Shown here piece by piece: positions 16,623-38,482 of a stretch of DNA of 61,475 nt. The stretch spans positions 1 through 61,475 of the IMG/VR virus record IMGVR_UViG_3300050821_004627; one strand, 5' to 3'. Position numbers and translations under genes: made by a program. A model generated the notes under the pieces. The model had not been told where the DNA came from, searched no databases, and saw nothing but the letters and a program-made list of their open reading frames with translations. Each line of letters starts with the position of its first letter. Within the stretch, counting starts at the first letter, position 1. Source of the DNA: a virus.

Positions 16623-16813
16623 TGTGATCTCCCCGTTGGGAACATGGCATTGTACAGAGCCTTCATCAATTCTCCACAATGTAGAATCAAATCCCTCTTG
16701 TTGTCAGGCGTGGGATTGCTACACAGACACTTTTCACTATCCGGCAAGTTTGACCACTCGATGCTATAACATGCCAGTGCTCCTCCACAGTTTGCACACT
16801 TTGTTACTTGCAT
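16619..16813 (-). CDS. Small zinc-ribbon protein
   Basis: 64 residues with CANCGGALAC and a later CLC/H-C group, probably a zinc ribbon. It overlaps both neighbours (ATG inside the end of 16804; stop overlapping GTG 16622). It may be a chaperone or regulator of the structural operon. Confidence 0.6.
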   Translation of the reverse strand: MQVTKCANCGGALACYSIEWSNLPDSEKCLCSNPTPDNKRDLILHCGELMKALYNAMFPTGRSQ

Positions 16814-17427
16814 GGGTACCTCCTCACGCCTCTAAACGTAATATCAAAGCTCACAGGAGCCCCCAACGGAGTAGCACTCGTCGCATAGATATAGAACCTG
16901 ATCGATGTATTCGCCCTATAAGTCATCGGGGGCGTCGGCCAGAAGTTCTTAGGAATCGCCTGTGCCGACGACTGAGCTGAGAGATTAACCGCAGTATCCG
17001 GGACATGAAAGAAGTTTGTGAATAGAAGGGGGACGTTAGAGACCTGGACTTGATTAGTGTCTAAGAGTAGGATCTTGAAATTCCCTAGATCCTGCCCTAG
17101 ATACCCTCCCGTGGCACTCGCGCTACCTCCCGATAAGAAGGTATACCCAATGTTCAATAGTCCATCCACCAGGACCGCTGGAGTAGGGGTAGATGCAACC
17201 ACCAGAGCCGCCGCTGGTCCAAATGCATTAATCGCATTCACAACTTGCAAACTCGTACTCGCATTAGCCCCCGTCCCGTCATCATGCACCGTCACTGTGA
17301 TCTGACTCCCACTCACAGCCACGCTCAACGGCGTATTAGCTATCCCCAGGTCGATCAACCCCACACTGATCAGATTACCTGCTGGTCCCAGAGGTACAGC
17401 TACGAAATTTAATGTTGGTAGAGCCAT
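16804..17427 (-). CDS. Putative virion structural protein with closing G-V-R-R-Y strand
   Basis: 207 residues, all-beta, Ala/Thr/Val-rich. The N-terminal 100 residues form one beta domain (ITVTVHDDGTGAN...) and the C-terminal part a second with SIRFYIYATS and a final strand FDITFRGVRRYPCK. The same ending appears in 18115 (IALVGMNRYR), 17444 (LAFYGVRRRK) and 19348 (LVLSGLYARG), suggesting related jelly-roll-like folds. It is probably a capsid or spike-base protein. Confidence 0.6.
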   Translation of the reverse strand: MALPTLNFVAVPLGPAGNLISVGLIDLGIANTPLSVAVSGSQITVTVHDDGTGANASTSLQVVNAINAFGPAAALVVASTPTPAVLVDGLLNIGYTFLSGGSASATGGYLGQDLGNFKILLLDTNQVQVSNVPLLFTNFFHVPDTAVNLSAQSSAQAIPKNFWPTPPMTYRANTSIRFYIYATSATPLGAPVSFDITFRGVRRYPCK

Positions 17428-17443
17428 CTATCTCATGTCCCCT

Positions 17444-18085
17444 TTAATCAGCAGGCGTCAATGACAATGTAGCCGCGACTCCCGTACTCCCGCCAAATCC
17501 ATCCACTCTCCTGCACTCGAAATCATAGTCCGGCACCTCTAAAGCTGTCAGGAATCCCCCACTGGCGCTTGAGAAGCCCGTAGGAAGAGTCACAGTGGTC
17601 TGCAAATCAAACACCTTCTCATATGAGGGGTAGGTGTAGACCTGTGGATCATTCAACAGTCCCTTGCGTCTCCTGACCCCATAGAAAGCTAATTGTCCGA
17701 TCCCCGAGACATTGGGCGTGATGTTCGGCAGGGCACTAATCAGGTCAAACCCTATGTATCCAGAATCCGGGTACCACTTCTCTGGCAACACGGCCCACCC
17801 AGTGGAAGCTAAGAGCGACTGCTGGTTACTAGGCTGGAGGAATGGCTGGAGATTCGCAGACCAGTAAGGATTCTGTAAGTAGTCTCTAATCTGAATCCCC
17901 TGCGAAATATTCGCATATAGATCGCACCCTCTCCACCACCTGGCAATGAAGTCCCCATCATTGATCAAGATCCTCAAATTGTTGTACGTAGACCCCGACA
18001 CCAAGGGAATAGTCGTGGAGTCATAGGCATAAACATAGAACGTGTCCCCGTACCCAGGAGGCGTTGTGTAGGTGTAGTCTTCCAT
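17444..18085 (-). CDS. Putative virion structural protein
   Basis: 213 residues with aromatic beta strands (DTFYVYAYDSTTIPL), an IGFDL strand and LAFYGVRRRKG about 60 residues before the end. The exact 13-mer at 18093-18105 provides its ribosome site (AGGAGAA, 7 bases before ATG). It is related in style to the other 200-residue structural proteins. A capsid or penton role is inferred. Confidence 0.6.
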   Translation of the reverse strand: MEDYTYTTPPGYGDTFYVYAYDSTTIPLVSGSTYNNLRILINDGDFIARWWRGCDLYANISQGIQIRDYLQNPYWSANLQPFLQPSNQQSLLASTGWAVLPEKWYPDSGYIGFDLISALPNITPNVSGIGQLAFYGVRRRKGLLNDPQVYTYPSYEKVFDLQTTVTLPTGFSSASGGFLTALEVPDYDFECRRVDGFGGSTGVAATLSLTPAD

Positions 18086-19347: not shown

Positions 19348-19983
19348 CTACTGAACTCCGCGTGCGTACAGCCCAGAGAGTACGAGCTGATACGTAAAAC
19401 CAGTGCCGCCATTGGCAGAGGTAGTGAGAGTGATGCCAGTCGTATTCAACTGGGCAAAGAACGACGCTTGGTTGTCAATCACGACGTTAATAGCAATGCG
19501 GTTCATCTCACTCCGGCCCACCATCCCATTGTTGAGGACGGAGGTGGATGTGTTGGTGAAAAAGGCATTGATGCCGCCACCGGGGTTATAGAGCCACAGG
19601 GGACCGCGTTGATAGACCTTGTTGCCGATGATGAATTCCAAGACTGAACCACCACTGCCAGTCAAGATGGCATAGAGGTCAGCCAGGAGTACATCTTGCC
19701 GCCAATAGAAGCGGTACGATTTGATGGTGAAGGCCTCAGGAGCATCCAGCTTCTTGGAGTTCTGAACGTTCGTTTGGGCCAAGGTCTTGCCCTGGACATT
19801 GACGAACATGAATGAGGCCGCAGTGGTGATCGTGGCACCACTCGCGAAAGAGACAGTGTCATACAGGGGAGTATCCTGTACGTCCATCCGATTGGGTTCA
19901 TAGGTCTGACCATTGAACTCGTTCAGGATGTAAGATTGCTGGGGCGTTAGACTCGGCCCAGTAGGTACGACAGCGCTAGACAT
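19348..19983 (-). CDS. Candidate major capsid protein
   Basis: 211 residues. Features expected of a jelly-roll capsid protein: beta strands throughout, a conserved-looking block VQGKTLAQTNVQNSKKLDAP then FTIKSYRFYW (in small icosahedral phages a similar T-N...L..P..F.I segment opens the capsid protein), a GRSEMNRIAINVVI strand and a closing LVLSGLYARG strand. It has a good ribosome site (GAGAGGAAA), a long leader on its 5' side and a GC-rich hairpin region on its 3' side (19216-19347), consistent with high expression. The length fits a single or compact double jelly roll. No HK97-type capsid is present elsewhere. The assignment is inferred from fold style and context. Confidence 0.5.
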   Translation of the reverse strand: MSSAVVPTGPSLTPQQSYILNEFNGQTYEPNRMDVQDTPLYDTVSFASGATITTAASFMFVNVQGKTLAQTNVQNSKKLDAPEAFTIKSYRFYWRQDVLLADLYAILTGSGGSVLEFIIGNKVYQRGPLWLYNPGGGINAFFTNTSTSVLNNGMVGRSEMNRIAINVVIDNQASFFAQLNTTGITLTTSANGGTGFTYQLVLSGLYARGVQ

Positions 19984-20152: not shown

Positions 20153-21151
20153 TTAGTAGGCGGGGGCGTAAGCAGCCATTCCACGAGCACTCGGGGCAGA
20201 GGCACCCATCACCATGCCTGCACGGATGGGATTCTGCGGAACTACGAAATTGCCGTTGACCAGATCACCTAAGCTGAGGTAGCCGGAGATCGAGCTAGGC
20301 AGAAAAGCGTTGATTGCAGCAGAGAGGGTCATAGCAATGCCCCCTGCATATGCGCCTCCACCGATGGTCGGACCCATGAACTTGGTTGCGGCCCAGCCTA
20401 CGACCCAGGCAGTCACGCCCGTAGTGAGGATGGTCATGTAGGGCGAGGTGCCGAGAGAGCTAACGATGCCACTGGATGAGACTGCGGCATTGATAGCCTT
20501 GGTTGCGCCGACTCCCAGGAGGATACCCCCGGAGACTTCGAGCATGCCCTTGGGACTAGAGATTCCAAGGATCGAGGGATTACGCCGACGATTCATGTGA
20601 CGATGCCGACGGCGATTCACAGTGTGACGCCGACGATTAGTACGGCGGGTCCTGCGTCTACGTGGATTACCCACGACGTAGACAGTGCGGCGGGACTTAT
20701 TGGTGCGCCTCCGTCTGCGGACATTGGTGCGGCGGTGACGTACATTGGTAGCACGCCGACGCCGTGAAACTGCTTTGCGACGTTTACGGGTTTTTGCCAC
20801 TCTATTTGTTCTCCTTCTTGGGTTAACCGAACCTAGTGTCACCACCAGTGCCGGATTCGTTCTACGCCTACGACGCTTGATTGGTCGGGCTGTGTAGTTA
20901 ATCTTTCGACGCCTAGGAGCATGGCTACTCCTTTTAGTGCGCCGATGGGAGACGGGATTACTAGTCCGTTTCCGCTTTCTAGCCGCTTTCAATCCTGCCC
21001 TTTGCCTGGCAGTTCCGAAATACTTGATCTGCTTAGCAGTCATCTTCTTTCGGCCTGCATTCTTCCTACGGGTGGTGCGGAGGCGGTATTTACCTCTGGC
21101 ATTCCGTCTGCGGGGATTAGCGACTCGCGTTACTTTGGTGACTACTGCCAT
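20153..21151 (-). CDS. Arg-rich protamine-like protein fused to a membrane domain
   Basis: 332 residues. Residues 1-190 are extremely basic, with dozens of Arg in runs, four NPRRR-type repeats and a MTAKQIKYFGTARQRAGLK segment. Residues 195-295 are Gly/Ala-rich with two to three membrane helices (GGILLGVGATKAINAAV, TTGVTAWVVGWAATKF, GGIAMTLSAAINAFL). Near the C-terminus is GDLVNGNFVVPQNP (about 295-308), shared with 26017 and 29186. The best model is a virion membrane protein whose basic tail binds or condenses the packaged DNA, tethering genome to membrane. The gene lies directly upstream of the candidate capsid gene. Confidence 0.7.
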   Translation of the reverse strand: MAVVTKVTRVANPRRRNARGKYRLRTTRRKNAGRKKMTAKQIKYFGTARQRAGLKAARKRKRTSNPVSHRRTKRSSHAPRRRKINYTARPIKRRRRRTNPALVVTLGSVNPRRRTNRVAKTRKRRKAVSRRRRATNVRHRRTNVRRRRRTNKSRRTVYVVGNPRRRRTRRTNRRRHTVNRRRHRHMNRRRNPSILGISSPKGMLEVSGGILLGVGATKAINAAVSSSGIVSSLGTSPYMTILTTGVTAWVVGWAATKFMGPTIGGGAYAGGIAMTLSAAINAFLPSSISGYLSLGDLVNGNFVVPQNPIRAGMVMGASAPSARGMAAYAPAY

Positions 21152-21173: not shown

Positions 21174-21518
21174 CTACGTGATCTCCGAGAAAGGCCGGAG
21201 CAGGGTAACGAGCAGGGTGCCATTGCCACCTACCACAGTGCTCTTATTCAGAGTCACCACGTTGGTCGATGAGCTGAGATTGACGGTGATTGCCTGGGGC
21301 AAGGTCGTCAAAGAGCCGGTATCGTACTCGATGATTACGACTGGCCACAGGTTAGCCGACTGAGCCGCCGTCAACCCCCAGTTATGAGTCAATAGGGCTG
21401 TGACTTCAGAATCGGACCAGAATACCGTGGCCGTCACCATGTTGCACAATAACGCCTGGGCTAGAGTCGGGGGAGTGGTCCCGGCTACAGGGTAGGCGTA
21501 AGTGATTGTTTGAGCCAT
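21174..21518 (-). CDS. Hypothetical beta-rich protein, probably structural
   Basis: 114 residues; Thr/Leu-rich, a helical middle (LTHNWGLTAAQSANLW) and strands near the C-terminus (QAITVNLSSSTNVVTL). SD AGGAG precedes ATG 21518. It sits between the FkbM gene and the Arg-rich protein gene in the structural block. Not recognised. Confidence 0.6.
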   Translation of the reverse strand: MAQTITYAYPVAGTTPPTLAQALLCNMVTATVFWSDSEVTALLTHNWGLTAAQSANLWPVVIIEYDTGSLTTLPQAITVNLSSSTNVVTLNKSTVVGGNGTLLVTLLRPFSEIT

Positions 21519-22201: not shown

Positions 22202-23680
22202 TTAGGCCACCGCCTCCTGTGCTTCTTTTTGCACGTCCGGCATAATCGGCTCTACACCCTGTAACTTGAGGTGTGGGATCTTTACCCTTCTATCCACGTA
22301 CATCCTGACTCCATGCTTTTTAGCATTCCAGCAAAACGACGTGTCCTCGCCATAGAATCCAAACGGATGCCCACTCACAGGCACAGGCTGAAAAGCTTGA
22401 TGTCCTCCCGCCCTTACCAACGCCTCATACTTCATCAGCACTGCCGGGAATCCAGTCCAATCCACTTTAGTCAGATCTTTAGTGACTTTTACTACTCCAC
22501 CTGGGTGTGCATGGCCAGTCAACATGTACCTGGGATCGAGACTCCTACAATTACCCTCTTTATCAAAATTCCCCACTGACACTCTGGCCGGGGTCTGATA
22601 CCCGTTAGTTGCTACCCAAGTCCATGCTGACACTGAGTCGATCTCCGGGTGCTCCTCCAGATCCTTGAGCAGGATCATGAAGTGCTCAAAGGTCAATAGG
22701 TTGTCGTCATCAATCCACAGTACGTAATCAGGACTCGGCTTACACTCCATCACACCATTCGCTAGAGTTGCTCTGGTCACGTACACGTTAGTCGAGTAAC
22801 AGAAATTAGGCACCAAATCAAAATGGGGCATTAGGCAGGAGAACAGTTGGGTCCAGTTCATCACCCATGCACTAGAGAATTGCTCACCAGGGAGACAGAT
22901 GGCTAGCTTTTTACGGACCTGATATCCACGGCCCTTGCTGCGCTCCATATAGAGCTTCTTGCCTATGTCCCAGGCTTCGCGGCGGGATTGATTCTCGTAT
23001 ACGGCGTCAGTCTTGACATCTGGGTTATAGATCGGGTGCCTGTGCTCGAACTTGAGATGACGGGCAGTGACTACTACCCCATCCTTACGAGCTTGGTCCG
23101 TGAAGTCGTTATCAGAGTAGACGGTGAGGTAGCCAGGATAGAGCATGTACCCGTAACGCTCATAGTATTTCCTGGTCATGAAGCAGAACGTCAGGAGCCC
23201 CCCTGCCCCCGCCGCTGCCCAGTTCGGTGCTCCTGTGTCTACATCGAGGACCAGTTCCTTGTCTTCCCAGTCTCCAGACCATAAGTGTTTGGTATCTACC
23301 ATTACTTTATGGAGAGTCTCTAACAGGAGTGTGTCCCAATGCTCAGGAGGGAACAGATCATCGGCTACATTGATCAGGAATTTACCAGAGCTTGACTCAG
23401 CCGCTAAATTCCACCCGGCTACACAAGTCTCAGGACCGTGATTGATCACACACTTTGACCGGCTGAATATGTCGGCCATAAACAGGCTAGCTTCCCCAGA
23501 CTTAAACTTAGACGCATCAGCTACTAGGATGTGCTCTACTAATTCAGGATGATCGGCTCGATCCCTCCACATCAGTAAAGCCTCACGCCATCCGTCAGGC
23601 ACTCTGGCCGTGGTGTGGCAGAGTGAAAATATTGGTTCCGTGCTCATTGGTTCTTTCCCGTGTCCTTTCTTCTTACTCAC
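22202..23680 (-). CDS. Two-domain GT-A glycosyltransferase
   Basis: 492 residues in two glycosyltransferase-like halves. Residues 15-200 hold a GT2-like fold with GWNLAAESSSGKFLINVADD (acidic motif VADD). Residues 270-490 hold a second GT-A domain with the metal-binding DDD in YVLWIDDDNL and a GEDTSFCW acceptor-side motif. GTG 23680 overlaps the upstream stop; ATG 23647 is an alternative. The first half is paralogous to 4395. It likely transfers two sugars in sequence to a virion or cell-surface acceptor, with the FkbM gene next door. A near copy of the 13-mer (22831-22843) lies inside. Confidence 0.8.
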   Translation of the reverse strand: MSKKKGHGKEPMSTEPIFSLCHTTARVPDGWREALLMWRDRADHPELVEHILVADASKFKSGEASLFMADIFSRSKCVINHGPETCVAGWNLAAESSSGKFLINVADDLFPPEHWDTLLLETLHKVMVDTKHLWSGDWEDKELVLDVDTGAPNWAAAGAGGLLTFCFMTRKYYERYGYMLYPGYLTVYSDNDFTDQARKDGVVVTARHLKFEHRHPIYNPDVKTDAVYENQSRREAWDIGKKLYMERSKGRGYQVRKKLAICLPGEQFSSAWVMNWTQLFSCLMPHFDLVPNFCYSTNVYVTRATLANGVMECKPSPDYVLWIDDDNLLTFEHFMILLKDLEEHPEIDSVSAWTWVATNGYQTPARVSVGNFDKEGNCRSLDPRYMLTGHAHPGGVVKVTKDLTKVDWTGFPAVLMKYEALVRAGGHQAFQPVPVSGHPFGFYGEDTSFCWNAKKHGVRMYVDRRVKIPHLKLQGVEPIMPDVQKEAQEAVA

Positions 23681-25437
23681 TTCTCAATCCCCCTACTCGT
23701 TTCTAGCAATGGCTTCTTGATGCAATAAACCCCACCCGCAAAACTCAATTTCTGATTCAGCGTATCATACACTAGATCCGGCCTTGGCACTTCCTTTTTG
23801 TTCTTCCCCCGTGCATCCTCATCTAGTCCCACTTCATGCTCATAGATGATAGACTCGAATCCATCAAAGTCTTTCTCGGTCATGTACGAGAGAAAGTGGA
23901 CCTCTCCTAGGACCATAATGTCCTTCTCCCAGTCACCAGTCATCTTCAGTTTCTCTAGATCTACGCACTGGTCCCCACCCACCAAGTACATCTGCGTGCC
24001 GTCCTCGTTAGAGCACAATAGGACTTGGTCACTGAGCTTATTGGTGTCGAAGCTCAATTGTGCGTCGAGCCCGGATCTGGTGATGATTTTGAGTTCAATC
24101 AGCTGTCCCAGCTCAGCGAGATTACCGTGATAGTGTTCCTCTTCCTCGAAGACTTCTATAGCTTCGGAGTCTTTACCGTGAAACGCACGATACATGTCAG
24201 CGGCGGTGACTTCAGGGTTACGCCTCTTGGGATTGCCCCCAAAATGCCTACTAGGCCCCTCTGTTGTTTTGGTCCCCGGCCTCGGTGGTTTATTGGGTCC
24301 CGCCGACACTGAAATCCTGAACTTGGCATAACCCAAATCCTCCAAGTGACGCGCCCAAGCCTTGGCCTCATTCACTTCCTCGGTATACATCTCCATGTTC
24401 CGATCAAGCCAGACAGTGTAGTAGATGGGACCTGTGTACTTTGCCTTCTTGGGATTCTCTTCAAACACAGCCCACCCTTCACCCCAGGGCTTCTCCACCC
24501 TCACTACCTTGCCTTCAGCCTCCAACAACCTCGCATACCTCTTAGCCGCCTTCTCCGCCCCTGGCCCAGTAAATGTATGTGTAGGATTCTTAGGATTGAA
24601 GACCTTCCCAATCTGCGAATCCAAGAACTCCCCGGCCCCGCCAATAGTCCTGAGGGTGGAGCTAATAGGCCCCGATGTTTTCTTCTTCGGATTACTAGCT
24701 ATAAATCTCTTGGCCTCATCCACGTCCTCAAACCTCGATTCCTTATCCAGGCTCGGGACCACATACCCATCCTCAGCCTTGACAATCTTATAGCCCTTGT
24801 AACTAGTCCCCCTCCCCGTACTCTTGACTTCCCCACCCATCTTCAATCCCCTGGCCTGATCACTAGCCCCCTCTTCATACGCGATCCTTAAACTCCTCTT
24901 TACTGGCTCCCCCCGCTCCTCCAGATGATTCCTCTCCAACCAGTCATCAAAATGTTCCTTCCCCTTATACCCAGCCGCGTAGGCCTCGCGATCCGCCCTG
25001 ACTATGGACCACCCGCTACGCTTACGCTTTTTAGCCGGAGCCTCGTCTTCTTTACTCGATGATCCCCACCACGGGTTACTCTTACTGGCTAGCTGGTCTG
25101 CCTTCTCTCTTGCCCTTTGCAATGCATAATCAGGCTTATCAGAGAAATGGAACGTACCTTTACGTGTACTGCTTGTTATTCCGTTCTCCCAGACCTCGTA
25201 CCATCCCGTCCCCTTCCTAGTTATGAAGTAGCTGCCCACTTCGTACACAATGTACCCTTCAGTAGGATTACGGTGGCTAGCCAATTCTCTGGCGTACTCC
25301 CGTCTTTTTGTCTCTGGCGTCTTCTCCACCAACTCCTTCGCCGCTTCCTTAGGCATCCCCTTACTTCTCCCACTCAGTACAGCCTGAGCCATCCCATATT
25401 GTTGAGCGCTCTGAGCGGGATTTAATCTGGTAGCCAT
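23677..25437 (-). CDS. Multidomain protein with NPKK/NPKRR-type motifs
   Basis: 586 residues from ATG 25437. Lys/Arg-rich NP motifs punctuate the chain (SNPWWG, SNPKKK, FNPKNP, ENPKK, NPKRRNP), like the NPRRR motifs of the Arg-rich protein at 20153, and separate several small alpha/beta modules (for example WYEVWENG...GTFHFSD and YTVWLDRNMEMYTEEVNEAK). The last 130 residues form a distinct domain (VLGEVHFLSYMTEKDFDGF). No P-loop or nuclease motif is visible. It is probably an internal virion or polyprotein-like protein cut at NP linkers; the function is unknown. Confidence 0.6.
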   Translation of the reverse strand: MATRLNPAQSAQQYGMAQAVLSGRSKGMPKEAAKELVEKTPETKRREYARELASHRNPTEGYIVYEVGSYFITRKGTGWYEVWENGITSSTRKGTFHFSDKPDYALQRAREKADQLASKSNPWWGSSSKEDEAPAKKRKRSGWSIVRADREAYAAGYKGKEHFDDWLERNHLEERGEPVKRSLRIAYEEGASDQARGLKMGGEVKSTGRGTSYKGYKIVKAEDGYVVPSLDKESRFEDVDEAKRFIASNPKKKTSGPISSTLRTIGGAGEFLDSQIGKVFNPKNPTHTFTGPGAEKAAKRYARLLEAEGKVVRVEKPWGEGWAVFEENPKKAKYTGPIYYTVWLDRNMEMYTEEVNEAKAWARHLEDLGYAKFRISVSAGPNKPPRPGTKTTEGPSRHFGGNPKRRNPEVTAADMYRAFHGKDSEAIEVFEEEEHYHGNLAELGQLIELKIITRSGLDAQLSFDTNKLSDQVLLCSNEDGTQMYLVGGDQCVDLEKLKMTGDWEKDIMVLGEVHFLSYMTEKDFDGFESIIYEHEVGLDEDARGKNKKEVPRPDLVYDTLNQKLSFAGGVYCIKKPLLETSRGIEK

Positions 25438-25445
25438 AAAAGGGT

Positions 25446-25458
25446 TTCGGCAGGAGAA
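25446..25458 (+). repeat. Dispersed 13-mer TTCGGCAGGAGAA, exact copy in opposite orientation
   Basis: In the 5' leader of the 23677 gene but antisense to it, so it is not a ribosome site. One of three exact plus-sense copies. Confidence 0.85.
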
Positions 25459-25465
25459 TCTAGAG

Positions 25466-25738
25466 CTACTTGCCTTCCTCCTTGGGAGCTGGGGGTATCG
25501 TCGGTTCATCACTAAAGAGATTGGGGAATGGGCTAGTTCTCAGGTGATTGATCAACCCCAGGACTGCCCCACCTAATATGACCTTGCCAATCTTCAGATA
25601 ATCCCCTGTAGTTAGGCCAAAGTTTTCTGGCTCTACTGAGGCCATCCCCACAGCGGCCACAGCTCCAGTGATGATGGCTGAGACTGTGCCATTGACCCAG
25701 GCTTTCCAATTGTTCGTGATCATTGCGGGCATCGTCAT
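25466..25738 (-). CDS. Holin-like small membrane protein
   Basis: 90 residues with two membrane segments (VSAIITGAVAAVGMA at about 19-33 and IGKVILGGAVLGLINHL at about 50-66), and a Pro/charged C-terminal tail. Size and topology resemble class II phage holins. It may release the lysozyme-like enzymes or be a virion membrane protein. SD and spacing after 25744 are consistent. Confidence 0.55.
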   Translation of the reverse strand: MTMPAMITNNWKAWVNGTVSAIITGAVAAVGMASVEPENFGLTTGDYLKIGKVILGGAVLGLINHLRTSPFPNLFSDEPTIPPAPKEEGK

Positions 25739-25743
25739 TAGAG

Positions 25744-26010
25744 TTAGAGGGCTCCTTTGTAGGCTTTGGCTGCTTTACCTGCTGCACGTTTATGGGCTGT
25801 GTACCGGGACTCACTACCACCGAAAAAGAACATGAGCACCACAATCCCACCGGTTAACCAAGCCCAGGCGGGGATTCCAGAGATGGGATCGCTAAACGCC
25901 GTAGCTACATTCCCAGAGGTCAGGTCACTGGTGAATTGGGTAAAATCACTGGTCAAGTCACCAATCCCTAGGACTGGGGGCAGTACGTGATGTTGCTGGC
26001 CTAGCTGCAT
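25744..26010 (-). CDS. Tail-anchored membrane protein, paralogue of the 26017 C-terminus
   Basis: 88 residues. N-terminal VLGIGDL (a degenerate form of the Gly motif), then FTQFTSDLTSGN and SDPISGIP shared almost exactly with 26017 (LSQFTSDLTSGN, TDTISGIP), then one membrane helix and a basic tail with Lys/Ala. A duplicated membrane-anchor module. Likely virion membrane protein. Confidence 0.7.
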   Translation of the reverse strand: MQLGQQHHVLPPVLGIGDLTSDFTQFTSDLTSGNVATAFSDPISGIPAWAWLTGGIVVLMFFFGGSESRYTAHKRAAGKAAKAYKGAL

Positions 26011-26016
26011 AGTTGA

Positions 26017-26526
26017 TTAGGCGTAGTTCCGTTTCCCCCGCCCTGTCCCACTCTTCTCTCCAGCCCCCAACAGATACATAGTCCCTACAGCCAGGGCCGC
26101 GATCACATACACAGGGATACCAGAGATAGTGTCAGTGAAAATAGCCTGAGAGATGTTCCCAGAGGTTAGGTCACTGGTGAATTGTGAGAGGTCAGTGGAT
26201 AGAGTGCCCATCCCACCTCCACATCCTCCACCCCCGCCACTACATCCACATCCACAACCCCCTAACCCGTGCATCGAACTCGTGGGCCGCTTCTTACGCA
26301 TCAATGGAGTCCCGGCTGCTCCCTGGCCTATAGGAGCTACGGTGCCTGTGATCTGGGCCAAGAGAGGATTCTGTGGGACTACGAACGAGGCCGCTACAAA
26401 ATCCCCTAATGCTGGTTTAACGCTTACTCCTTCTTGGGCCATTTGAAGGGGATTCTGAGGGACCACGTAATAGCCAGTGAGCAGGTCTCCTAGGCCGGGG
26501 GCGGGATGATATGCGAGATTAGACAT
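26017..26526 (-). CDS. Virion-type membrane protein with two VPQNP modules and MHGLG motif
   Basis: 169 residues. Residues 11-27 (GLGDLLTGYYVVPQNPL) and 40-55 (LGDFVAASFVVPQNPL) are two copies of the VPQNP module. Then come a basic linker, the motif M85-H-G-L-G89, a Gly/Cys run (GCGCGCSGGGGGCGGG) that could bind metal or cross-link, the QFTSDLTSGN module shared with 25744, a membrane helix (about 140-158), and a basic tail. If cleaved at MHGL-G, the VPQNP part would be a separate peptide. Confidence 0.75.
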   Translation of the reverse strand: MSNLAYHPAPGLGDLLTGYYVVPQNPLQMAQEGVSVKPALGDFVAASFVVPQNPLLAQITGTVAPIGQGAAGTPLMRKKRPTSSMHGLGGCGCGCSGGGGGCGGGMGTLSTDLSQFTSDLTSGNISQAIFTDTISGIPVYVIAALAVGTMYLLGAGEKSGTGRGKRNYA

Positions 26527-26758
26527 GTTGAGATTTCTCCTTTAGCTGTGTGGCTCCAGTTACCTTCTCCAGATTCCTGGTATCAACCACGCCATAGAAT
26601 AATTCATTGTGTACAGTCATGAACCGGATGATGGAAAAACATTCCGGCATGGGTATACGCTCGTACTCAGACAGGGGGAAAATGGGGCACAGTCCCGTAA
26701 GCTTGAGCATCTGACCTTTGCTCAAGTACGTGGATCGTTTTGTGAGTTCAGTGTTCAT
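26519..26758 (-). CDS. Hypothetical soluble protein inside the membrane-protein cluster
   Basis: 79 residues from ATG 26758 in a TAATG overlap with 26758, ending across the ATG of 26017. It has no membrane helix; ICP-like mixture of strands (ECFSIIRFMTVHNELFYGVV) suggests a small globular fold. The only clearly soluble product in this cluster, so it could be a regulator or an assembly factor. Unknown. Confidence 0.6.
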   Translation of the reverse strand: MNTELTKRSTYLSKGQMLKLTGLCPIFPLSEYERIPMPECFSIIRFMTVHNELFYGVVDTRNLEKVTGATQLKEKSQHV

Positions 26759-27123
26759 TACTTTATGCTCTTGGCCACTACAATCAGTACCACCAACCCC
26801 AGACCGATGCCTATCAATGTGCTGCAATTGATTCCTATTGTGTTGCCGCACAGATCACTGGTGGGATTCTGATTCAATGTATTTGCTGAGGCCGTCTGTA
26901 GACATGCATTCTCAGCATCAGAACACGTTGTAGTCATCTGTTGGCTGAACGGGTTCAGGGCGCTCAACAGAACATTAGAAATCGAGGCACAGTGAATGAT
27001 CCCGCCATCATGCGTCGGATCATAACATGGAGATCCTGGAGCTAATCCACCTGCTGGAGGTGCAACAGTTCCCAAGCCACTCAGACTCCCTAAGCTAGCG
27101 AGACTTCTATTCATCATGCTCAT
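26758..27123 (-). CDS. Tail-anchored Gly/Cys-rich protein with LSGLG motif
   Basis: 121 residues: Ser-rich start, motif L14-S-G-L-G18, six Cys in the ectodomain (for example TTTCSDAENACLQ, DLCGNTIGINC), and a C-terminal helix (LIGIGLGLVVLIVVAKSIK). With a basic C-terminus the positive-inside rule predicts the N-terminus outside. ATGA overlap with 27120. Confidence 0.75.
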   Translation of the reverse strand: MSMMNRSLASLGSLSGLGTVAPPAGGLAPGSPCYDPTHDGGIIHCASISNVLLSALNPFSQQMTTTCSDAENACLQTASANTLNQNPTSDLCGNTIGINCSTLIGIGLGLVVLIVVAKSIK

Positions 27124-27467
27124 TTGTTGGCTATGACTGCCACGAATAACGCAACAGCCACTCCTCCAAGTAATAAAACCGTGCTGGATATCGGTGTCTG
27201 TGTACCAGGGATCGTTACAATGGATGGCGGATTAGCAGGTAGTGCTGCATACTGACTAGCTGATAAAACAGGCTGGTCCAGATAGTTGGTATTTACTCCC
27301 GTGTTTAACGGGAGATTCTGTAAGGCACTTGTGTAGGTGCTCCCAGACACAGGAGTGGTCACAGGGGCCATGGTAATCCCACTCGTGTCTAGACAGATCC
27401 CCGTGGCATCACAAGTAGGATCCCCCAAGCCACCCATACCCATCCTTTGATTGAGATTGATCATCAT
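27120..27467 (-). CDS. Tail-anchored protein with MGGLG motif
   Basis: 115 residues. Motif M11-G-G-L-G15 is followed by a Cys pair (DPTCDATGICLD), a Thr/Pro-rich stalk and a C-terminal membrane helix (VLLLGGVAVALFVAVIANK). Same layout and topology as its neighbours; starts directly after the stop of 27468. Confidence 0.75.
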   Translation of the reverse strand: MMINLNQRMGMGGLGDPTCDATGICLDTSGITMAPVTTPVSGSTYTSALQNLPLNTGVNTNYLDQPVLSASQYAALPANPPSIVTIPGTQTPISSTVLLLGGVAVALFVAVIANK

Positions 27468-27767
27468 CTATCTCTTGCCCTTACCCATCAACATCACTGC
27501 TGCCAATCCCGCCACCCCGATCATCAAGATGGTGGTAGTGGACATCGATCCCCCACTTGGTAAAGCCGCCACTTGAGCAGGAGTCAGGATAGGCTCCTGA
27601 TTAATAGCCGCCGTAGACGCAGGTGAAGTCAGTGGCAGTCCAGACGGATCAGTCCCACCAGCTATGATTGATTCATTCTCCAAGGCACTGAGGTCATCAG
27701 ACACATCCCCCATCCCCAGCCCCATCCCAGAGAACCCCTGATAGCTAGATAGGTTGAGCATCGACAT
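27468..27767 (-). CDS. Tail-anchored protein with GMGLGMGD motif
   Basis: 99 residues: N-terminal FSGMGLGMGD (12-21), acidic helix, Thr/Pro stalk, C-terminal membrane helix (ILMIGVAGLAAVMLMGKGKR). No Cys. Its ribosome site is a 12-of-13 copy of the genome-wide repeat (27777-27789). Confidence 0.75.
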   Translation of the reverse strand: MSMLNLSSYQGFSGMGLGMGDVSDDLSALENESIIAGGTDPSGLPLTSPASTAAINQEPILTPAQVAALPSGGSMSTTTILMIGVAGLAAVMLMGKGKR

Positions 27768-27950
27768 CTAGGCTAGTTCTCCTGCCGATCCCCCACCACT
27801 CTTACTCCCGCCTCTGCCCATTAAAGCTAGAGCTATTGCGGCTGCTGCTCCTAGATAGAACCACGTGATGTCTGGGCACACGCTATTAGGAGCTACTACT
27901 TGATCTTGTCTCCCGCACTGGTTAGATTTAGTGAATCCTAGGCACATCAT
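27768..27950 (-). CDS. Small Cys-containing membrane protein
   Basis: 60 residues; three Cys in the first 25, one membrane helix (WFYLGAAAAIALALMG) and a Gly/Ser-rich tail. It lacks the Gly motif. SD AAAAGGAGCC precedes ATG 27950. Probably a minor virion membrane protein. Confidence 0.65.
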   Translation of the reverse strand: MMCLGFTKSNQCGRQDQVVAPNSVCPDITWFYLGAAAAIALALMGRGGSKSGGGSAGELA

Positions 27951-27967
27951 TAGATCATTGGCTCCTT

Positions 27968-28630
27968 TTAGTTCGTGTACCGATTAGGCATCTTGCCCCA
28001 TGGCGATTTCTTAGGTAGGGCTCCCAGGTCAATGCCCCCTAACCCTACACCACTATTGGCTTGGGTCACAGTTGAGGGGGCAGGCATGATCATTCCCAGC
28101 CCCTCTGTGCCACGGCGATTAGGTGTGTCCTGGGCAGCAGTCCCACCGCTGGCTGCCACGGTCTGAATAGGGGTAGCTTTGGGAGTAGAACACAGGCCAT
28201 CACTTAGGCTATAGGTAGTTCCTGTTACACATGCTTGAGCATTGGCTAACATCGAGGCTGCTTGGGCATAAGTAAGAGTGGGAGCCATCGAGGCAAAGGT
28301 ACGCTGGTCCTGGGGAGAGAGTAGGTAGTTAATGGCTTGGAGTTGCTGTTGAGTGGCCATCTGTTGAGTAGAGACCGTGCCTGAGGCCGTGGTGGCCGGA
28401 GCTGTAGTAGTTGTGGTGGCGGGAGTCGTGTCCACAGAAGTAGAAGTGGTTGTGGTCCCTGCCGTCACTACAGGAGTCGTAGCCGTGGTTCCGAACCATG
28501 AGGCCCAGTAGCTCCCAGGTCCCCCGGCCACAGCCACAGCTCCAGAAGGCCCATAGTTATTGATGTACCAGTAGAGGGCATAAGCTCCCCCTGCAATCGC
28601 CGCGTACATGATTAGGTCTTTGGTCTTCAT
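27968..28630 (-). CDS. Membrane protein with inverted topology of the Gly-motif family
   Basis: 220 residues from ATG 28630 (SD GAAAGGAT). Here the membrane helix is N-terminal (DLIMYAAIAGGAYALYWYI), followed by a Thr-rich stalk of about 60 residues, a helical domain (QQQLQAINYLLSPQDQRTF) and a C-terminal GVGLGGIDLGAL before a basic end. The order is the reverse of the tail-anchored neighbours. Likely a virion spike or membrane protein. Confidence 0.65.
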   Translation of the reverse strand: MKTKDLIMYAAIAGGAYALYWYINNYGPSGAVAVAGGPGSYWASWFGTTATTPVVTAGTTTTSTSVDTTPATTTTTAPATTASGTVSTQQMATQQQLQAINYLLSPQDQRTFASMAPTLTYAQAASMLANAQACVTGTTYSLSDGLCSTPKATPIQTVAASGGTAAQDTPNRRGTEGLGMIMPAPSTVTQANSGVGLGGIDLGALPKKSPWGKMPNRYTN

Positions 28631-28638
28631 CTCAACAA

Positions 28639-29184
28639 TTATCCTTTCACCAGGAAGTACAAGCCCACCAAAGCCCCCACAGCTAACAAGGGATTCTGTC
28701 CAACCCATCCAGCCAACGAGTCGCACGCTTGAACCTGAGGCTCCTGCATAGGAGCAGCAACGATAGAAGGCAGGGTGGGAACTAGTGATCTGGGGTTAAT
28801 AGCTTTCGATGCTGGTTGCGAGGCTCCATATGCATTAAGAGCCGTTTGCGTAATAGACGGAGTCGTTTGCGTCGTAGCCTTAGGCAATGGCGCATAAATC
28901 GGAGGCGTCACCGGAAAGGGAGGGGTAGTGGGAGCAGGTACGACGCTGGGGCAATTCAATCCCGACGTAGATCTATAAGGAGCGCAGACAGGATTCTCGC
29001 ACGTGTTGTACGAGTTCATCTGCCCATACCACGCGCACCACGCCCTAGCCCCAGTGTTAGCTCCACCGTCCGCGAAACATGCGTAGGGTAGACAATCAGC
29101 AGCAGTCGCGGGAGTATTGCCTGGGTCAGTGATTACGCCTGACTCGATGGTTACGGTAGCAGGACCATTCCATGCACCAGCCAT
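28639..29184 (-). CDS. Tail-anchored protein with duplicated C-terminal anchor (copy A)
   Basis: 181 residues: N-terminal beta domain with eight Cys (likely disulphides), a Pro/Thr stalk, and a C-terminal module GWVGQNPLLAVGALVGLY ending LVKG, nearly identical to the end of 29186 (GWIGDNPLLAAGALVGLY). Only the anchor is shared, so different ectodomains use one membrane module. Confidence 0.7.
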   Translation of the reverse strand: MAGAWNGPATVTIESGVITDPGNTPATAADCLPYACFADGGANTGARAWCAWYGQMNSYNTCENPVCAPYRSTSGLNCPSVVPAPTTPPFPVTPPIYAPLPKATTQTTPSITQTALNAYGASQPASKAINPRSLVPTLPSIVAAPMQEPQVQACDSLAGWVGQNPLLAVGALVGLYFLVKG

Positions 29185-29185
29185 T

Positions 29186-29833
29186 TTAGTCCACCCCCTT
29201 GATTAAGAGATAAAGCCCGACCAGAGCCCCCGCTGCTAATAAGGGATTGTCCCCAATCCATCCCACTATCCCTTTGCACATTATTGTGTTATCTGAGTAG
29301 GTAACGCCTGGGACGTTGGGGACGATCTGCGGTAAGGGGTTCAAGATCGTTTGAGTGGTGAATTTGTGCCCTCTCGGGATCTGTGTACCGGCTGCTGACC
29401 CAGCATCTAGATAGGCGGCATTGCCATAGGCTGAGGGGTAATTAGGAGCCGCTGATGGAGAAGTCTGTAGGGTAGCGGCTGTGGGGCCTGAGGACTCGTT
29501 ATTGGTTGCGATCACGATAGTAGTTGTAGGGGCTGTGACGTCTACAGGGGTGCCTGTGGCAATAGGGACTGATGCGATGGAACTAGAGGGCATGGAGCTT
29601 AGAAGCTGGCTAGTGCCCAGAGGAATCGAGCCAGGCCCCACGTTTGATCCAGTGCTCATCGGCAGCATACCTGATTGGCCCCAAGGTACACATTGGTCAG
29701 AGCCACGAGGATAGAAGGGGTTGCTAGGGACTGAGAAGCATCCAGGGATTAGATCTCCCATCCCACCACGAAATGGATTCTGTGGGAGGATGGTCTGGCC
29801 GGATTGAAAGGCTCCTAGTCTCTGGCGTCTCAT
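29186..29833 (-). CDS. Tail-anchored protein with two PxNP modules (copy B of anchor)
   Basis: 215 residues from ATG 29833 (ATGA overlap with 29830). N-terminal ILPQNPF (15-21) and GDLIPGCFSVPSNPF (26-40) are two versions of the VPQNP module; FRGGMGD lies between. A Thr/Ser/Pro-rich stalk leads to the anchor shared with 28639. Probably a virion membrane protein. Confidence 0.7.
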   Translation of the reverse strand: MRRQRLGAFQSGQTILPQNPFRGGMGDLIPGCFSVPSNPFYPRGSDQCVPWGQSGMLPMSTGSNVGPGSIPLGTSQLLSSMPSSSIASVPIATGTPVDVTAPTTTIVIATNNESSGPTAATLQTSPSAAPNYPSAYGNAAYLDAGSAAGTQIPRGHKFTTQTILNPLPQIVPNVPGVTYSDNTIMCKGIVGWIGDNPLLAAGALVGLYLLIKGVD

Positions 29834-30303
29834 AATCCAGAGGCTCCTATCTGTACGCACTGTGTACCTGTTCCCGCTGCATTAGGTTGTAGCTGCCACT
29901 GCCACCCCCAGGCGTATAGAAATCCCCCAGCCAATGCACCCACACCCAGCAACTTACCCCATCCGGGCAGCAGCAATAATCCTAACGCTCCCGCTGCATA
30001 TAAGGCCGCTTGAGCAGGAAACAGGCCGGTACCAAATACACCACAGCCTGCTGTACCTGGATTCTGTAGAGGCCCCTCCCCAGAACTGTTCGTACAAACG
30101 TATTGAGGACACCCATTGGCACCTAATTCGAGCACGGCCCCAGGAGTAGTTGATAGAGCATTCACTACCTCAGAATTAGGGACATAATACATTGCTTGAT
30201 TCGTGTACCCAGTGGGACAGCCCTTAGGCCAGGACGGGTCTTGATAGACTGAGCACGTTGGTGTAGTGGTTCCTAATCCATGCATGCCTGACATCTTTGC
30301 CAT
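29830..30303 (-). CDS. Membrane protein with N-terminal MHGLG motif
   Basis: 157 residues. Motif M7-H-G-L-G11, a Cys-rich ectodomain (PTCSVYQ, GCPTGY, GCPQYVC), and two hydrophobic segments (AALYAAGALGLLLLPGW and LGVGALAGGFLYAWGW) before a polar end with one Cys, so the topology differs from the one-helix neighbours. Confidence 0.7.
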   Translation of the reverse strand: MAKMSGMHGLGTTTPTCSVYQDPSWPKGCPTGYTNQAMYYVPNSEVVNALSTTPGAVLELGANGCPQYVCTNSSGEGPLQNPGTAGCGVFGTGLFPAQAALYAAGALGLLLLPGWGKLLGVGALAGGFLYAWGWQWQLQPNAAGTGTQCVQIGASGL

Positions 30304-30304
30304 A

Positions 30305-31246
30305 CTATTTACTCATCCCCATGAACAGAAACAGAGCCAGGACCCCTGCTCCCAAGAGCATGGCCGTCTTACTACCCACTGCTCCGGCTAAACACGTTTC
30401 TCCTGGAAAGAAGCTCAATGCACAAGTCCCAGGAGTCAGGTTAGGATTCGTCCCCCCTGTCGTTAGAGCCGATGTGCCCGTAGCACTACCCGTGACATTC
30501 GAGTTCTGTACAGTAGGCTGATTCGGCAACACTCCTGTAGGCACTGGAGGAGGAGCAGATTGTGGAGCCGTACCTAATACATTGCTACCACCGCCCTGCG
30601 TCCCACTCCCTCCCCCACTCACAATATTAGACGTAGCTGTAGTCTGGGCTGGAGGATTACTTGCAAACGTAGTGGCAGCAGTCGTAGCTCCCGGCACATA
30701 AGCATTCTGCATGCAGCCAGTCCCAGGGACCCACGTATAGCCCACTAGCGGGAAACAGTTCTCGGTAGCTTGTGAGATTATAGGTCCTGGATTGTTAGCC
30801 GTCGTAGTATTAGGAGTAGCTATAGGGGTAGTTTGTCCAGCCTGGGCAGCGGCCACTAAAGCCGGAGGCAGTGCAGCGGCAATCTGATTTGCCTGGGCTA
30901 TGTACGAAGAGGAGGCCACAGATCCATTGCACGAGGAGGCGTCCCCAGGATTATTAGCACAGTAAGTATTGAGGGCATTGATCACCGTACCTGCTGCATC
31001 CTGGACCAGCGATGGGTTATTAATGACGAAGGGATTATTGGGAGCAAACTCCTGTTGATACTGAGCAATAATCTGATCAGCCGTAGATCCCAGGCCACGC
31101 ATCCCATATCTCTTAGTATTGAGGTCTACGAATCGTTGCAGGGCACTTGGCAGCCCTGGCCTGCCCAAAGAACTAAGTGAATGGGGGACTGGCTCATGGT
31201 ACCCTGTTGACGGGCCGCGTCTAGCGAGATTCATATCGATTCGCAT
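30305..31246 (-). CDS. Large tail-anchored protein with MRGLG motif
   Basis: 313 residues. The 48-residue basic N-terminus precedes M49-R-G-L-G53. Next are a helical domain (about 55-130), a long Thr/Pro/Asn stalk, and a C-terminal module CALSFFPGETCLAG then TAMLLGAGVLALFLFMG, shared with 31259 (CPLSFFSGESCLGG, TALVLGAGLLALL). The Cys pair just outside the membrane is conserved in both copies. Confidence 0.7.
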   Translation of the reverse strand: MRIDMNLARRGPSTGYHEPVPHSLSSLGRPGLPSALQRFVDLNTKRYGMRGLGSTADQIIAQYQQEFAPNNPFVINNPSLVQDAAGTVINALNTYCANNPGDASSCNGSVASSSYIAQANQIAAALPPALVAAAQAGQTTPIATPNTTTANNPGPIISQATENCFPLVGYTWVPGTGCMQNAYVPGATTAATTFASNPPAQTTATSNIVSGGGSGTQGGGSNVLGTAPQSAPPPVPTGVLPNQPTVQNSNVTGSATGTSALTTGGTNPNLTPGTCALSFFPGETCLAGAVGSKTAMLLGAGVLALFLFMGMSK

Positions 31247-31258
31247 AGTTAGTTAGTC

Positions 31259-32164
31259 CTAATCCCCCAAGACCAATAGAGCCAAGAGTCCGGCTCCTAA
31301 TACTAAAGCTGTCTGAGTGCCAATGAATCCTCCTAGGCAGGATTCCCCACTAAAGAAACTAAGCGGGCAACTAGACGCAGGGGTGGTGACTACCTGTCCA
31401 TTGCTCAGGACTGTGGTTGTAGTTGAGGCCCCTGTTACCGGGCTAGTTGTGGTGGTTGAGGAAGTAGCCACGGGATCAGGAACGACTGTGGGATCATTAG
31501 CAATGGGATCGTAGTAACCAACAAACCAATTCCAACACGTAGATCCTGATCCGTTGGGACCTGCCCCCGTATACGTCCAGTTACCTGATGCATCCTGACT
31601 CCATCCCGCTGGGCTAGTCTTCCACTGGCATCCCGATTGTGATCTCTGGCTAATGCAATTCTGCCCGGCTGTTGATAGTTGTGGGTTGCCACACATCTGC
31701 ACTAACTGAGCCCAGGCCGAATTAAATGTCGTTAGTGCCGCTTGCTGGGCCGATGCGTAATGCACAGGAGCCGACATGTACTGATCGAGGTTCTGTTGCA
31801 AGAGAGCTGCGACTTGATTAGCGATGTTCGATGCTTCGGTACAGGTCGATCCGCATCCCTGGACCAAGTTATAGATTGCTACCCCTAAAGCTATGGCTCC
31901 TGATACAGCTAACCCGACTGGCCCTGCAATTGATCCCGTTGCGACTAATGAGCCATAGATCCCAATCGCTGTTGAGGCCGCTGCTGTAGCCGCTGGGATC
32001 GCTGCACTGGTATTGAGACCTAGACCTCGGAGTCCCTGATATGCTGTTGGATCGAATCCGGCTAGCTGTGTGATGAGCCGTTGGCCGTCACGATATGCCG
32101 AGGGATCGAATCCTAGTCCTGTGGGGACTGCTCTCTTCCACGTATGTGTGGTGGGCTGGAGCAC
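31259..32164 (-). CDS. Large tail-anchored protein with LRGLG motif
   Basis: 301 residues from a GTG with SD AGGAGAT. Twin GFDPSAY/GFDPTAY repeats precede L45-R-G-L-G49. A hydrophobic Ala/Gly-rich stretch (about 55-100), a Cys-rich ectodomain and the CPLSFFSGESCLGG plus membrane helix module follow. Paralogous to 30305 in the C-terminus only. Possibly a membrane-remodelling or spike protein. Confidence 0.7.
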   Translation of the reverse strand: MLQPTTHTWKRAVPTGLGFDPSAYRDGQRLITQLAGFDPTAYQGLRGLGLNTSAAIPAATAAASTAIGIYGSLVATGSIAGPVGLAVSGAIALGVAIYNLVQGCGSTCTEASNIANQVAALLQQNLDQYMSAPVHYASAQQAALTTFNSAWAQLVQMCGNPQLSTAGQNCISQRSQSGCQWKTSPAGWSQDASGNWTYTGAGPNGSGSTCWNWFVGYYDPIANDPTVVPDPVATSSTTTTSPVTGASTTTTVLSNGQVVTTPASSCPLSFFSGESCLGGFIGTQTALVLGAGLLALLVLGD

Positions 32165-32248
32165 CTACTTGGATCTCCTGCTGGGGATCTTGGCCTCAAT
32201 CTTCCCACTCTTCGTCACCCTGACCTGTGCCTTGATCCCTGAGGCCAT
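32165..32248 (-). CDS. Very small basic protein (27 aa)
   Basis: It fills the gap exactly: ATG two bases after the stop of 32251 and TAG abutting GTG 32164. Lys/Arg-rich with VRVTKSGK, echoing the end of 15787. It could be a coupled leader or a DNA-binding peptide. Confidence 0.4.
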   Translation of the reverse strand: MASGIKAQVRVTKSGKIEAKIPSRRSK

Positions 32249-32250
32249 CT

Positions 32251-32889
32251 CTACTTCTTGCCTCCCATGCTTATCAGCAGGAACCCCAACGCCCCCACGA
32301 TCAAAATGGTCCCCATACTCACCCCGCCTACCGTACTCGACAACAAACTCGTAATCCCCGTTGTTCCCGCACTAGCCGCCGCTGCCGGACTCCCATACAA
32401 TAGTTGCGTCCCATTCGGCAGCGTAACAGCCGTCCCCCCTTGAGCCACCGTCAACACTTTCGCCAACGTGGCCCCAGTCTGATTCACCATGGTGGCCCAT
32501 TGATACCCGCTCGGAGCCGCTGGGGTAGCTGTCCCTGGTGCTACAATCGTTGGCCCCGTATACCCCTGCGGCAAACTAGCCAGCAGATTTGTAGGTATCG
32601 TCGCACTCAGCGCCGATAAATCTGGAGTCGTAGTATCTATCGTAGACGGGGTATAAACAGGAAGGTCAACAGCTACCGGCGTAGTGGTCCCTATATCTAT
32701 AGGACTCCCATCACACCCACTCGTATCATTGTCATCACACTCCTGCCCCAATCCCCTCAGCCCCCGTAACCCACCCATCCCATACCCTGGTGAGCTGGCC
32801 CTTAATCGCATCATTGGGTTATGTCCCCCTACCTTCAATTCGGCGGGCAAACTCTTAGCTCCACCTCTTTGCATTGGGACTGTGATCAT
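32251..32889 (-). CDS. Tail-anchored protein with LRGLRGLG motif
   Basis: 212 residues from ATG 32889 (ATGA overlap with 32886). Basic N-terminus, then LRGLRGLG (41-48), an acidic Cys pair (CDDNDTSGCDG), a Thr/Pro stalk, a small beta region (TLPNGTQLLYG) and a C-terminal helix (GTILIVGALGFLLISMGGKK). Clear member of the Gly-motif family. Confidence 0.75.
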   Translation of the reverse strand: MITVPMQRGGAKSLPAELKVGGHNPMMRLRASSPGYGMGGLRGLRGLGQECDDNDTSGCDGSPIDIGTTTPVAVDLPVYTPSTIDTTTPDLSALSATIPTNLLASLPQGYTGPTIVAPGTATPAAPSGYQWATMVNQTGATLAKVLTVAQGGTAVTLPNGTQLLYGSPAAAASAGTTGITSLLSSTVGGVSMGTILIVGALGFLLISMGGKK

Positions 32890-33005
32890 AGGCACTGTGG
32901 CTCTTGCTCCTCTACTATGCTATTCTGTCCAGCGGATGACGTGAACACATAACCGGACTCAGCCAACATCTTCTCTGATATGGGCCACCAACCTAGTGGC
33001 AGCAT
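32886..33005 (-). CDS. Small hypothetical protein (39 aa)
   Basis: Located between the transglutaminase-like gene and 32251, with ATGA overlap at its end. Trp-rich start (LPLGWWPISEKML), acidic end (VEEQEPQC). The ribosome site is weak. Unknown. Confidence 0.5.
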   Translation of the reverse strand: MLPLGWWPISEKMLAESGYVFTSSAGQNSIVEEQEPQCL

Positions 33006-33013
33006 CCTAAGTT

Positions 33014-33868
33014 CTACCAATTTACTTTCCATTCCTTAATCCTCGCCCCCGGCTTCCTGCCCTCCCACCCACAGTACTCCCCATGGCTTGCATCCACAGA
33101 TACCCTGCCCACGTTCTGATCATCTGGATACGCTGCCACGTACACATGGCTAAAATGTCCTGGATCACGCATATCCCCCGCAATCGTTACAAAGCTATTC
33201 CTAATCCCCATCCCAGTGAGTAGGGCTGAGAGGTACATCGAGTAATCATCACAGTCCCCAGCTTTGATCACCCCGATTCCGGCCATGTCTCTCGGCCTTA
33301 TGAGCACTTCGACCACTGGCTTATCCCTATACCCGTTGTACTGACTAAGTAGCTGTTCGAGTGGCCCACCTAGTTCCTCGTCCCTGATAAACTGAATCTT
33401 CCTCTGGGTCCACTCCCAAGCCTTCGTGATTAGCCCTAATTGATTACCCCCACTCCTACATATCTGGGCTATGTCGGCTTGTACGGCAGGAGACTGAGAG
33501 TCCTCCTGAGCGTATTGAGTCATCAGAGCTATCGTTTGCCTGACCTGTTCATCCGGGTCATCCGGCACTACCTGAGCCGTAAACCTTAGATCTTGTCCAA
33601 AGAGCGGGTGGACCACTTGCCCCTGCATCTGCTCCCCTTCCCCGATCCCTCCCATCCCTTGGCTACCTCTGGGGATTTGTTCGGCAGGATAATCCATAGA
33701 CATGGTTGATCCTGTTAGGCCCTGGGATGAGGCTATGGCATGGGTACGGTAGAGGCGTTGTGCTCGGGCTCTGGGTCCACCACGCATATAAAGGAAGCAG
33801 AATCCTTTGTGACTAGAGTTCTCGGGCTTGCACCAAAGACTATAGCCATAAACAATTGCCGGGTCCAT
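33014..33868 (-). CDS. Transglutaminase-like cysteine protease/hydrolase
   Basis: 284 residues (start uncertain; ATGs lie further in). The C-terminal 190 residues are a transglutaminase-like domain with the Cys-His-Asp triad: Cys in KAGDCDDYS, His in HFSHVYVAAY, Asp in VSVDASHG. The same fold includes cysteine proteases. The N-terminal region carries G-M-G-G-I-G-E-G, which itself fits the M-x-G-x-G motif of the membrane proteins encoded just downstream. It is therefore a candidate maturation protease, or a cross-linking enzyme. A near copy of the 13-mer (33680-33692) encodes YPAEQ. Confidence 0.75.
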   Translation of the reverse strand: MDPAIVYGYSLWCKPENSSHKGFCFLYMRGGPRARAQRLYRTHAIASSQGLTGSTMSMDYPAEQIPRGSQGMGGIGEGEQMQGQVVHPLFGQDLRFTAQVVPDDPDEQVRQTIALMTQYAQEDSQSPAVQADIAQICRSGGNQLGLITKAWEWTQRKIQFIRDEELGGPLEQLLSQYNGYRDKPVVEVLIRPRDMAGIGVIKAGDCDDYSMYLSALLTGMGIRNSFVTIAGDMRDPGHFSHVYVAAYPDDQNVGRVSVDASHGEYCGWEGRKPGARIKEWKVNW

Positions 33869-38074: not shown

Positions 38075-38482
38075 CTACAACTCCCGCCGCAGAGCCTCTA
38101 ACTCCGGCTCCTCATCGTCATCGTCATCATCTTCATCGTCGTCCAGGTCCTCGTCTTCATCCTCATCGTCATCATCGAGGCCCTCATCGTCATCCCCGCC
38201 CTCCGCTGCTATAGCCACGGTGCTATTGGTGTCGTCATCAAAAGCAAAGTCCACTTCCTCTGTCTCCACCGTCTGCACCGTCTGCCCGTTCTCCGTGTTA
38301 ATCATCATCCCTTTCTTCAACTTACACACGGGGTCCCCCTCCTTATCGAGGTCCCAGGTGGTCATGAACTGGCCCCCCTCACAGTCTAATACAGCGGGCT
38401 GGCCATAAAGCATGACCTCTCCCTCCTCCCCGTTATCCCCCACGATCCTGTACTCCGCGTCCCCTAACTGAATCTTAGGCAT
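38075..38482 (-). CDS. Protein with long polyacidic C-terminal tail
   Basis: 135 residues: a small N-terminal beta domain (KIQLGDAEYRIVGDNGEEG...) then a tail of about 35 almost purely Asp/Glu residues. Acidic tails occur on histone chaperones, ssDNA mimics and scaffold proteins. In this genome it could buffer the Arg-rich protein of 20153 before packaging. SD AAGGAGG upstream. Confidence 0.65.
   Translation of the reverse strand: MPKIQLGDAEYRIVGDNGEEGEVMLYGQPAVLDCEGGQFMTTWDLDKEGDPVCKLKKGMMINTENGQTVQTVETEEVDFAFDDDTNSTVAIAAEGGDDDEGLDDDDEDEDEDLDDDEDDDDDDEEPELEALRREL

Follow-up and report, generated by a model that had tools for sequence, protein, structure and literature searches.

Several described systems resemble parts of the protein analyzed here. 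In Flavobacterium phage FLiP (Finnlakeviridae), gp7 (MF361639, 2703–2957) begins with an Arg-rich stretch that leads into a membrane span; it is annotated as a virion structural protein in a published table (PMC13269007), and the 2026 FLiP-2 paper lists it as a putative lytic enzyme. In the internal-membrane phage PRD1, the capsid gene is flanked by the genes of the membrane proteins P20 and P22, which form a membrane DNA conduit, and the outer leaflet of the PRD1 membrane is rich in anionic PG (PMC4267777). Salisaeta icosahedral phage 1 (SSIP-1) is also a membrane-containing phage (PMC6356626), and for phages of the phiCjT23/PM2 type a published model has assembly begin with a membrane vesicle that wraps the genome (PMC9719478). 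Arg-rich protamine-like proteins with a putative function in DNA condensation exist in adenovirus, asfarvirus, and baculovirus, and the same paper states that no evidence points to a large contribution of basic proteins to the neutralization of phage dsDNA genomes (PMC3281028). Here, we describe a conserved Arg-rich and hydrophobic protein family encoded beside a capsid-like gene, starting from one IMG/VR virus record (61,475 bp; the window).

An Arg-rich tail joined to a hydrophobic domain

The open reading frame at 20153–21151 on the minus strand starts with ATG and encodes 332 amino acids. Residues 1–190 (20582–21151) form a basic tail that contains 64 Arg, 17 Lys, and no Asp or Glu residue (43% Arg plus Lys, net charge +81), in line with the roughly 190 Arg-rich residues that the first-pass annotation had described. 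The Arg/Lys density reaches 47 per 100 residues, compared with 35 for the next-best of all open reading frames in the window. The remaining 142 residues are hydrophobic and rich in Gly and Ala, with a GRAVY value of +0.66, while the most hydrophobic 140-residue stretch among 20 other proteins of the window has a value of +0.28. The 2 parts meet at an Asn-Pro dipeptide (residues 191–192, 20576–20581) that is nearly invariant across the family described below.

The hydrophobic domain has 3 peaks, located at about residues 203–221 (20489–20545), 233–251 (20399–20455), and 267–285 (20297–20353). Their family-mean Kyte–Doolittle hydropathies are only 1.21, 1.21, and 1.25, respectively, with values of up to 1.89 in single members, and the single-span proteins encoded nearby are more hydrophobic (mostly 1.7–2.9). 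The earlier proposal of 2 or 3 membrane helices is therefore plausible in the number of segments but not clear-cut in view of their moderate hydropathy. AlphaFold2 placed helices at all 3 peaks with low confidence; the confidence of the model was low overall except for one helix around MTAKQIKYFGTARQRAGLKAARKRK (residues 37–64, 20960–21043; pLDDT about 90), a stretch that the alignment finds in one subgroup of relatives only. The C-terminal region carries the motif GDLVNGNFVVPQNP (residues 295–308, 20228–20269). Searches of the protein against Pfam, PHROGs, and phage records gave no match, and a search against the PDB gave 2 chance-level matches only.

A conserved family beside a capsid-like gene

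A first search for relatives found a single one, with 61% identity, and a scan with the transglutaminase-like protein of the window (described below) found more viruses, 2 of which encode homologs (E values of 1.4e-50 and 7.9e-24). Scans with the capsid-like protein encoded next to the gene (19348–19983, minus strand) gathered 17 and later 29 IMG/VR loci. In 27 of these 29 loci, a match to a profile of the target protein lies immediately upstream of the capsid-like gene on the same strand; the profile drew on members of the same locus set, which match by construction, and the independent count is slightly lower because the record pairs L056/L057 and L059/L061 are identical or near-identical. 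Of the 27 loci, the 11 that lie outside the profile and its near-duplicates still match it, with E values from 7.5e-28 to 6e-58. The 2 loci outside this count, L076 and L077, diverge most from the rest, and L077 has a partial match only. The gene is also present in L044, which an initial composition filter had missed.

The family members share one order of elements: an N-terminal NP-Arg, the stretch NPALVVTLGaxNP, an Arg/Lys-rich run, an RRNP junction, 3 moderately hydrophobic segments, and a C-terminal FxVPxNP. Four features are near-invariant: the early NP, the sequence LTLGaxNP, the NP where the basic part meets the hydrophobic one, and the C-terminal Pro in FxVPxNP. The basic part varies from 67 to 196 residues and from +23 to +81 in net charge; it is mostly composed of Arg but is Lys-rich in L045, the least charged tail measured is that of L047, and the tail of L044 looks, by eye, even weaker. 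The dN/dS ratios of the basic part were 0.13–0.42 in 4 close pairs with usable divergence, and those of the hydrophobic part were 0.04–0.13 in 5 close pairs; a value of 1.3 for the basic part of the near-identical pair L065/L066 came from too few changes to inform, and the pair of the window and L001 was saturated in the basic part. The reading frame is thus under purifying selection in both parts, more weakly in the basic part, and the homolog family together with these ratios rules out the Arg run as a chance or wrong-frame product. These alignments support the fusion of an Arg-rich tail to a hydrophobic domain as a conserved protein family beside the capsid-like gene.

The first-pass annotation had further suggested a protamine-like, DNA-condensing role for the tail. 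If the protein condensed most of the genome, with the hydrophobic part serving as a packing domain rather than as a membrane anchor, the dominance of Arg, which resembles that of protamine-like virus proteins, and the hydropathy of the segments, which is below classical transmembrane values, would both be accounted for. The charge of the tail, however, spans 3.5-fold (+23 to +81) among contigs of 53–62 kb, and its correlation with contig size gave a rho of 0.33 (n = 14, p = 0.25) in a small sample in which some contigs are fragments. Neutralizing 90% of the phosphates by these tails would take about 1,370 copies here; for the virus of L047, the figure rises to about 4,700. The conservation of the long hydrophobic domain and the published view of phage dsDNA neutralization (PMC3281028) also argue against bulk condensation, which is doubtful as the conserved function of the family; we consider this reading of the whole protein very improbable.

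NP motifs and a shared C-terminal motif

The protein contains 7 NP dipeptides compared with 1.0 expected, a number reached in none of 20,000 shuffles, and their positions are conserved among relatives. A 611-residue protein (23677–25512, minus strand), of which relatives conserve only the C-terminal domain, contains 10 compared with 1.0 expected. The NP motifs noted at first sight in these 2 proteins are thus truly enriched. The suggestion made with it, that the NP sites are processing points, is possible from the sequences, and a role as turns or linkers suits the data equally well.

The C-terminal motif recurs in a C-terminally anchored protein (26017–26526, minus strand) that has 2 N-terminal VVPQNP copies. 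In this protein, the pattern GDxVxGxFxVPxNP is repeated at the N-terminus, as it is in the relatives L060, L063, and L069. The motif, shared by the C-terminus of the target and the N-terminus of the 26017 protein, may serve in docking or processing.

Neighboring genes and the type of virus

The capsid-like protein (211 residues), a putative capsid protein, is the most conserved protein of the structural block; in the relatives, its gene is the next one downstream of the target gene. It had no match in the PDB, Pfam, or PHROGs, and an AlphaFold2 model from a two-sequence alignment gave no usable fold (pLDDT 29). Directly upstream of the target gene, a small protein of 114 residues (21174–21518, minus strand) is conserved in the related genomes G001 and G003. 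The minus-strand open reading frames 17444–18085 and 16804–17427 correspond to the 2 halves of one 290-residue protein in a relative (L001:12515–13387). Two long proteins of the same relative (L001:14660–16390 and L001:16354–18288) combine different N-termini with a C-terminal domain that also occurs in the 14929 protein; they are candidate spikes.

A block of small proteins (25744–32895, minus strand), most of which have a single hydrophobic segment at the extreme C-terminus, suggests a virion membrane. About 10 proteins between 25.7 and 32.9 kb have such a segment, compared with none of 19 control genes. A transglutaminase-like protein (33014–33868, minus strand) has a conserved Cys and His region and could be a maturation protease. 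Its sole match among 50,697 phage records was SSIP-1 gp34, annotated as structural, with an E value of 3e-3 (2e-8 against the SSIP-1 proteins alone). Further along, a minus-strand protein (38075–38482) ends in a long Asp/Glu run and has a homolog at L032:5845–6345, and another acidic protein is encoded at L029:1443–1886; a function of the 38075–38482 protein as an acidic chaperone of the Arg-rich protein is possible.

The 2 ends of the window are joined in the G001 relative (L006:10980–11615 matches both), and the genome is therefore probably circular and near complete. Its replication genes include a DNA polymerase A, helicases, and a Sak4-like protein. The large-terminase families PF03237 and phrog_2 are absent from the window, and phrog_2 gave one weak 12-bit match in a single relative; with the terminase absent, an identity as a tailed phage (Caudoviricetes) was rejected. 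No ATPase of the FtsK or A32 type was found in the window either, so that the genome has no recognizable packaging motor, although a strongly diverged one may be present. Two relatives encode a HerA/FtsK-like P-loop ATPase (L044:17041–18105 and L047:19857–20588, both minus strand) with no homolog in the window; these are also the 2 relatives noted above for their weak basic tails. Genome contig scans found no relative, and no host was assigned. Because the window shares the block of C-tail-anchored proteins and the gp34 match with a membrane-containing phage, a virion membrane is likely here. The group comprises uncultured bacterial viruses, probably tailless dsDNA phages with an internal membrane.

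A putative tether between genome and membrane

Encoded beside a capsid-like gene, a basic tail with a membrane-like anchor suggests a tether between the membrane and a polyanion, and the phage DNA is the obvious partner. We therefore propose, with a probability of about 0.5, that the target serves as a membrane protein in virion structure or assembly and that its basic tail keeps the genome attached to the viral membrane while particles form. The hydrophobic domain would be inserted in the viral membrane, the disordered Arg-rich tail would bind the genome, and the membrane would thereby lie close against the DNA, or envelop it, as the lipid core forms, in line with the model published for phiCjT23/PM2-type phages. 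The C-terminal FxVPxNP may dock to another component of the virion, as may the copy in the 26017 protein. Several observations count against this proposal: the variation in tail length and charge, the moderate hydropathy of the segments, a membrane that is itself deduced from gene content, and a capsid-like neighbor without a fold or a PDB relative.

The expected orientation of the tail also counts against it. By the positive-inside rule, a tail with a charge of +81 would hardly pass through the host membrane and should stay on the cytoplasmic side, which in PRD1-type assembly is the capsid side and not the DNA side. In that orientation, the tail could bind anionic phospholipid heads, the inner capsid surface, or both, instead of DNA, and so anchor the shell to the bilayer. 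The anionic outer leaflet of PRD1 and the adjacency of the gene to that of the capsid-like protein (27 of 29 loci) suit such a glue, and a loose electrostatic contact would tolerate tails of variable length. On the other hand, a charge of +81 with 64 Arg residues is, in our judgement, far above what lipid anchoring needs, and 3 spans would point the C-terminal motif away from the capsid. Since tail charge does not scale with contig size and the rule sets the tail on the capsid side, we do not place the tether higher and keep the membrane–capsid contact as a less likely but serious reading.

Alternatively, the protein could act at a special packaging vertex in the manner of PRD1 P20 and P22, with a basic tail of low copy number guiding the DNA through. 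The flanking position of the P20 and P22 genes and their conduit function (PMC4267777) speak for this, and a low copy number would account for a charge that does not scale with genome size; the lack of a recognized packaging ATPase in the window and the absence from P20 and P22 of any stretch above our basic-stretch threshold make it improbable.

The earlier idea of one protein linking DNA to an internal membrane is thus partly supported: the basic–hydrophobic fusion is conserved beside a capsid-like gene, and the virus looks tailless and membrane-containing. Condensation is doubtful, and the expected orientation of the tail speaks against a contact with DNA. A stronger version, in which no conventional motor exists, the membrane-anchored protamine-like protein wraps lipid round a condensed dsDNA genome of about 60 kb, and the capsid then assembles on this DNA–lipid core, is speculative, and we think it rather unlikely. 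If this is true, the phage would use a basic membrane protein both to condense its dsDNA genome and to enclose it. Basic proteins are seen as mattering little in dsDNA phages (PMC3281028). The present family, Arg-rich with a membrane-like anchor and conserved in its place next to the capsid-like gene, is a defined, testable candidate for a part in how membrane phages without an apparent packaging motor get a large genome into a lipid vesicle, and it marks a widespread virus group without a match in the phage records searched.

Comparison with known systems

FLiP gp7 stands out in a comparison that covered proteins of PM2, PRD1, P23-77, SH1, FLiP, and SSIP-1. Like the target, it joins an Arg-rich N-terminus to a membrane anchor, and its gene immediately precedes that of the major capsid protein. 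The 2 proteins differ in that (i) gp7 has 84 residues and one span, whereas the target family has about 220–340 residues and 3 segments; (ii) FLiP is an ssDNA virus of 9 kb; and (iii) gp7 has no NP motifs. A tblastn search with gp7 returned FLiP strains only, with no detectable homology to the target, and gp7 is an analog of the target rather than a homolog. phiCjT23 gp04, which occupies the same position as gp7, was rejected as a counterpart as it is not Arg-rich.

PRD1 P20 and P22 are likewise membrane proteins encoded beside the capsid gene of an internal-membrane phage, but they are about 5 kDa in size without a strongly basic tail, and they cooperate with a packaging ATPase, of which the window has no recognized counterpart. 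SSIP-1 shares with the window virus a run of C-tail-anchored proteins and the relationship of gp34 to the transglutaminase-like protein. It has no Arg-rich membrane protein of the target type; its tiny gp51, a hypothetical protein, is Arg-rich and only weakly hydrophobic. Its candidate capsid proteins gp45/gp46 formed the top hhalign pair with the capsid-like profile at a marginal probability of 7.5%. The protamine-like proteins of adenovirus, asfarvirus, and baculovirus resemble the target tail in being Arg-rich and belong to viruses of eukaryotes, unlike the window virus. We know of none among them that is joined to a hydrophobic domain.

The first-pass annotation had regarded a link between DNA and an internal membrane through one protein as unusual; the theme of an Arg-rich tail on a membrane anchor has a precedent in FLiP gp7.
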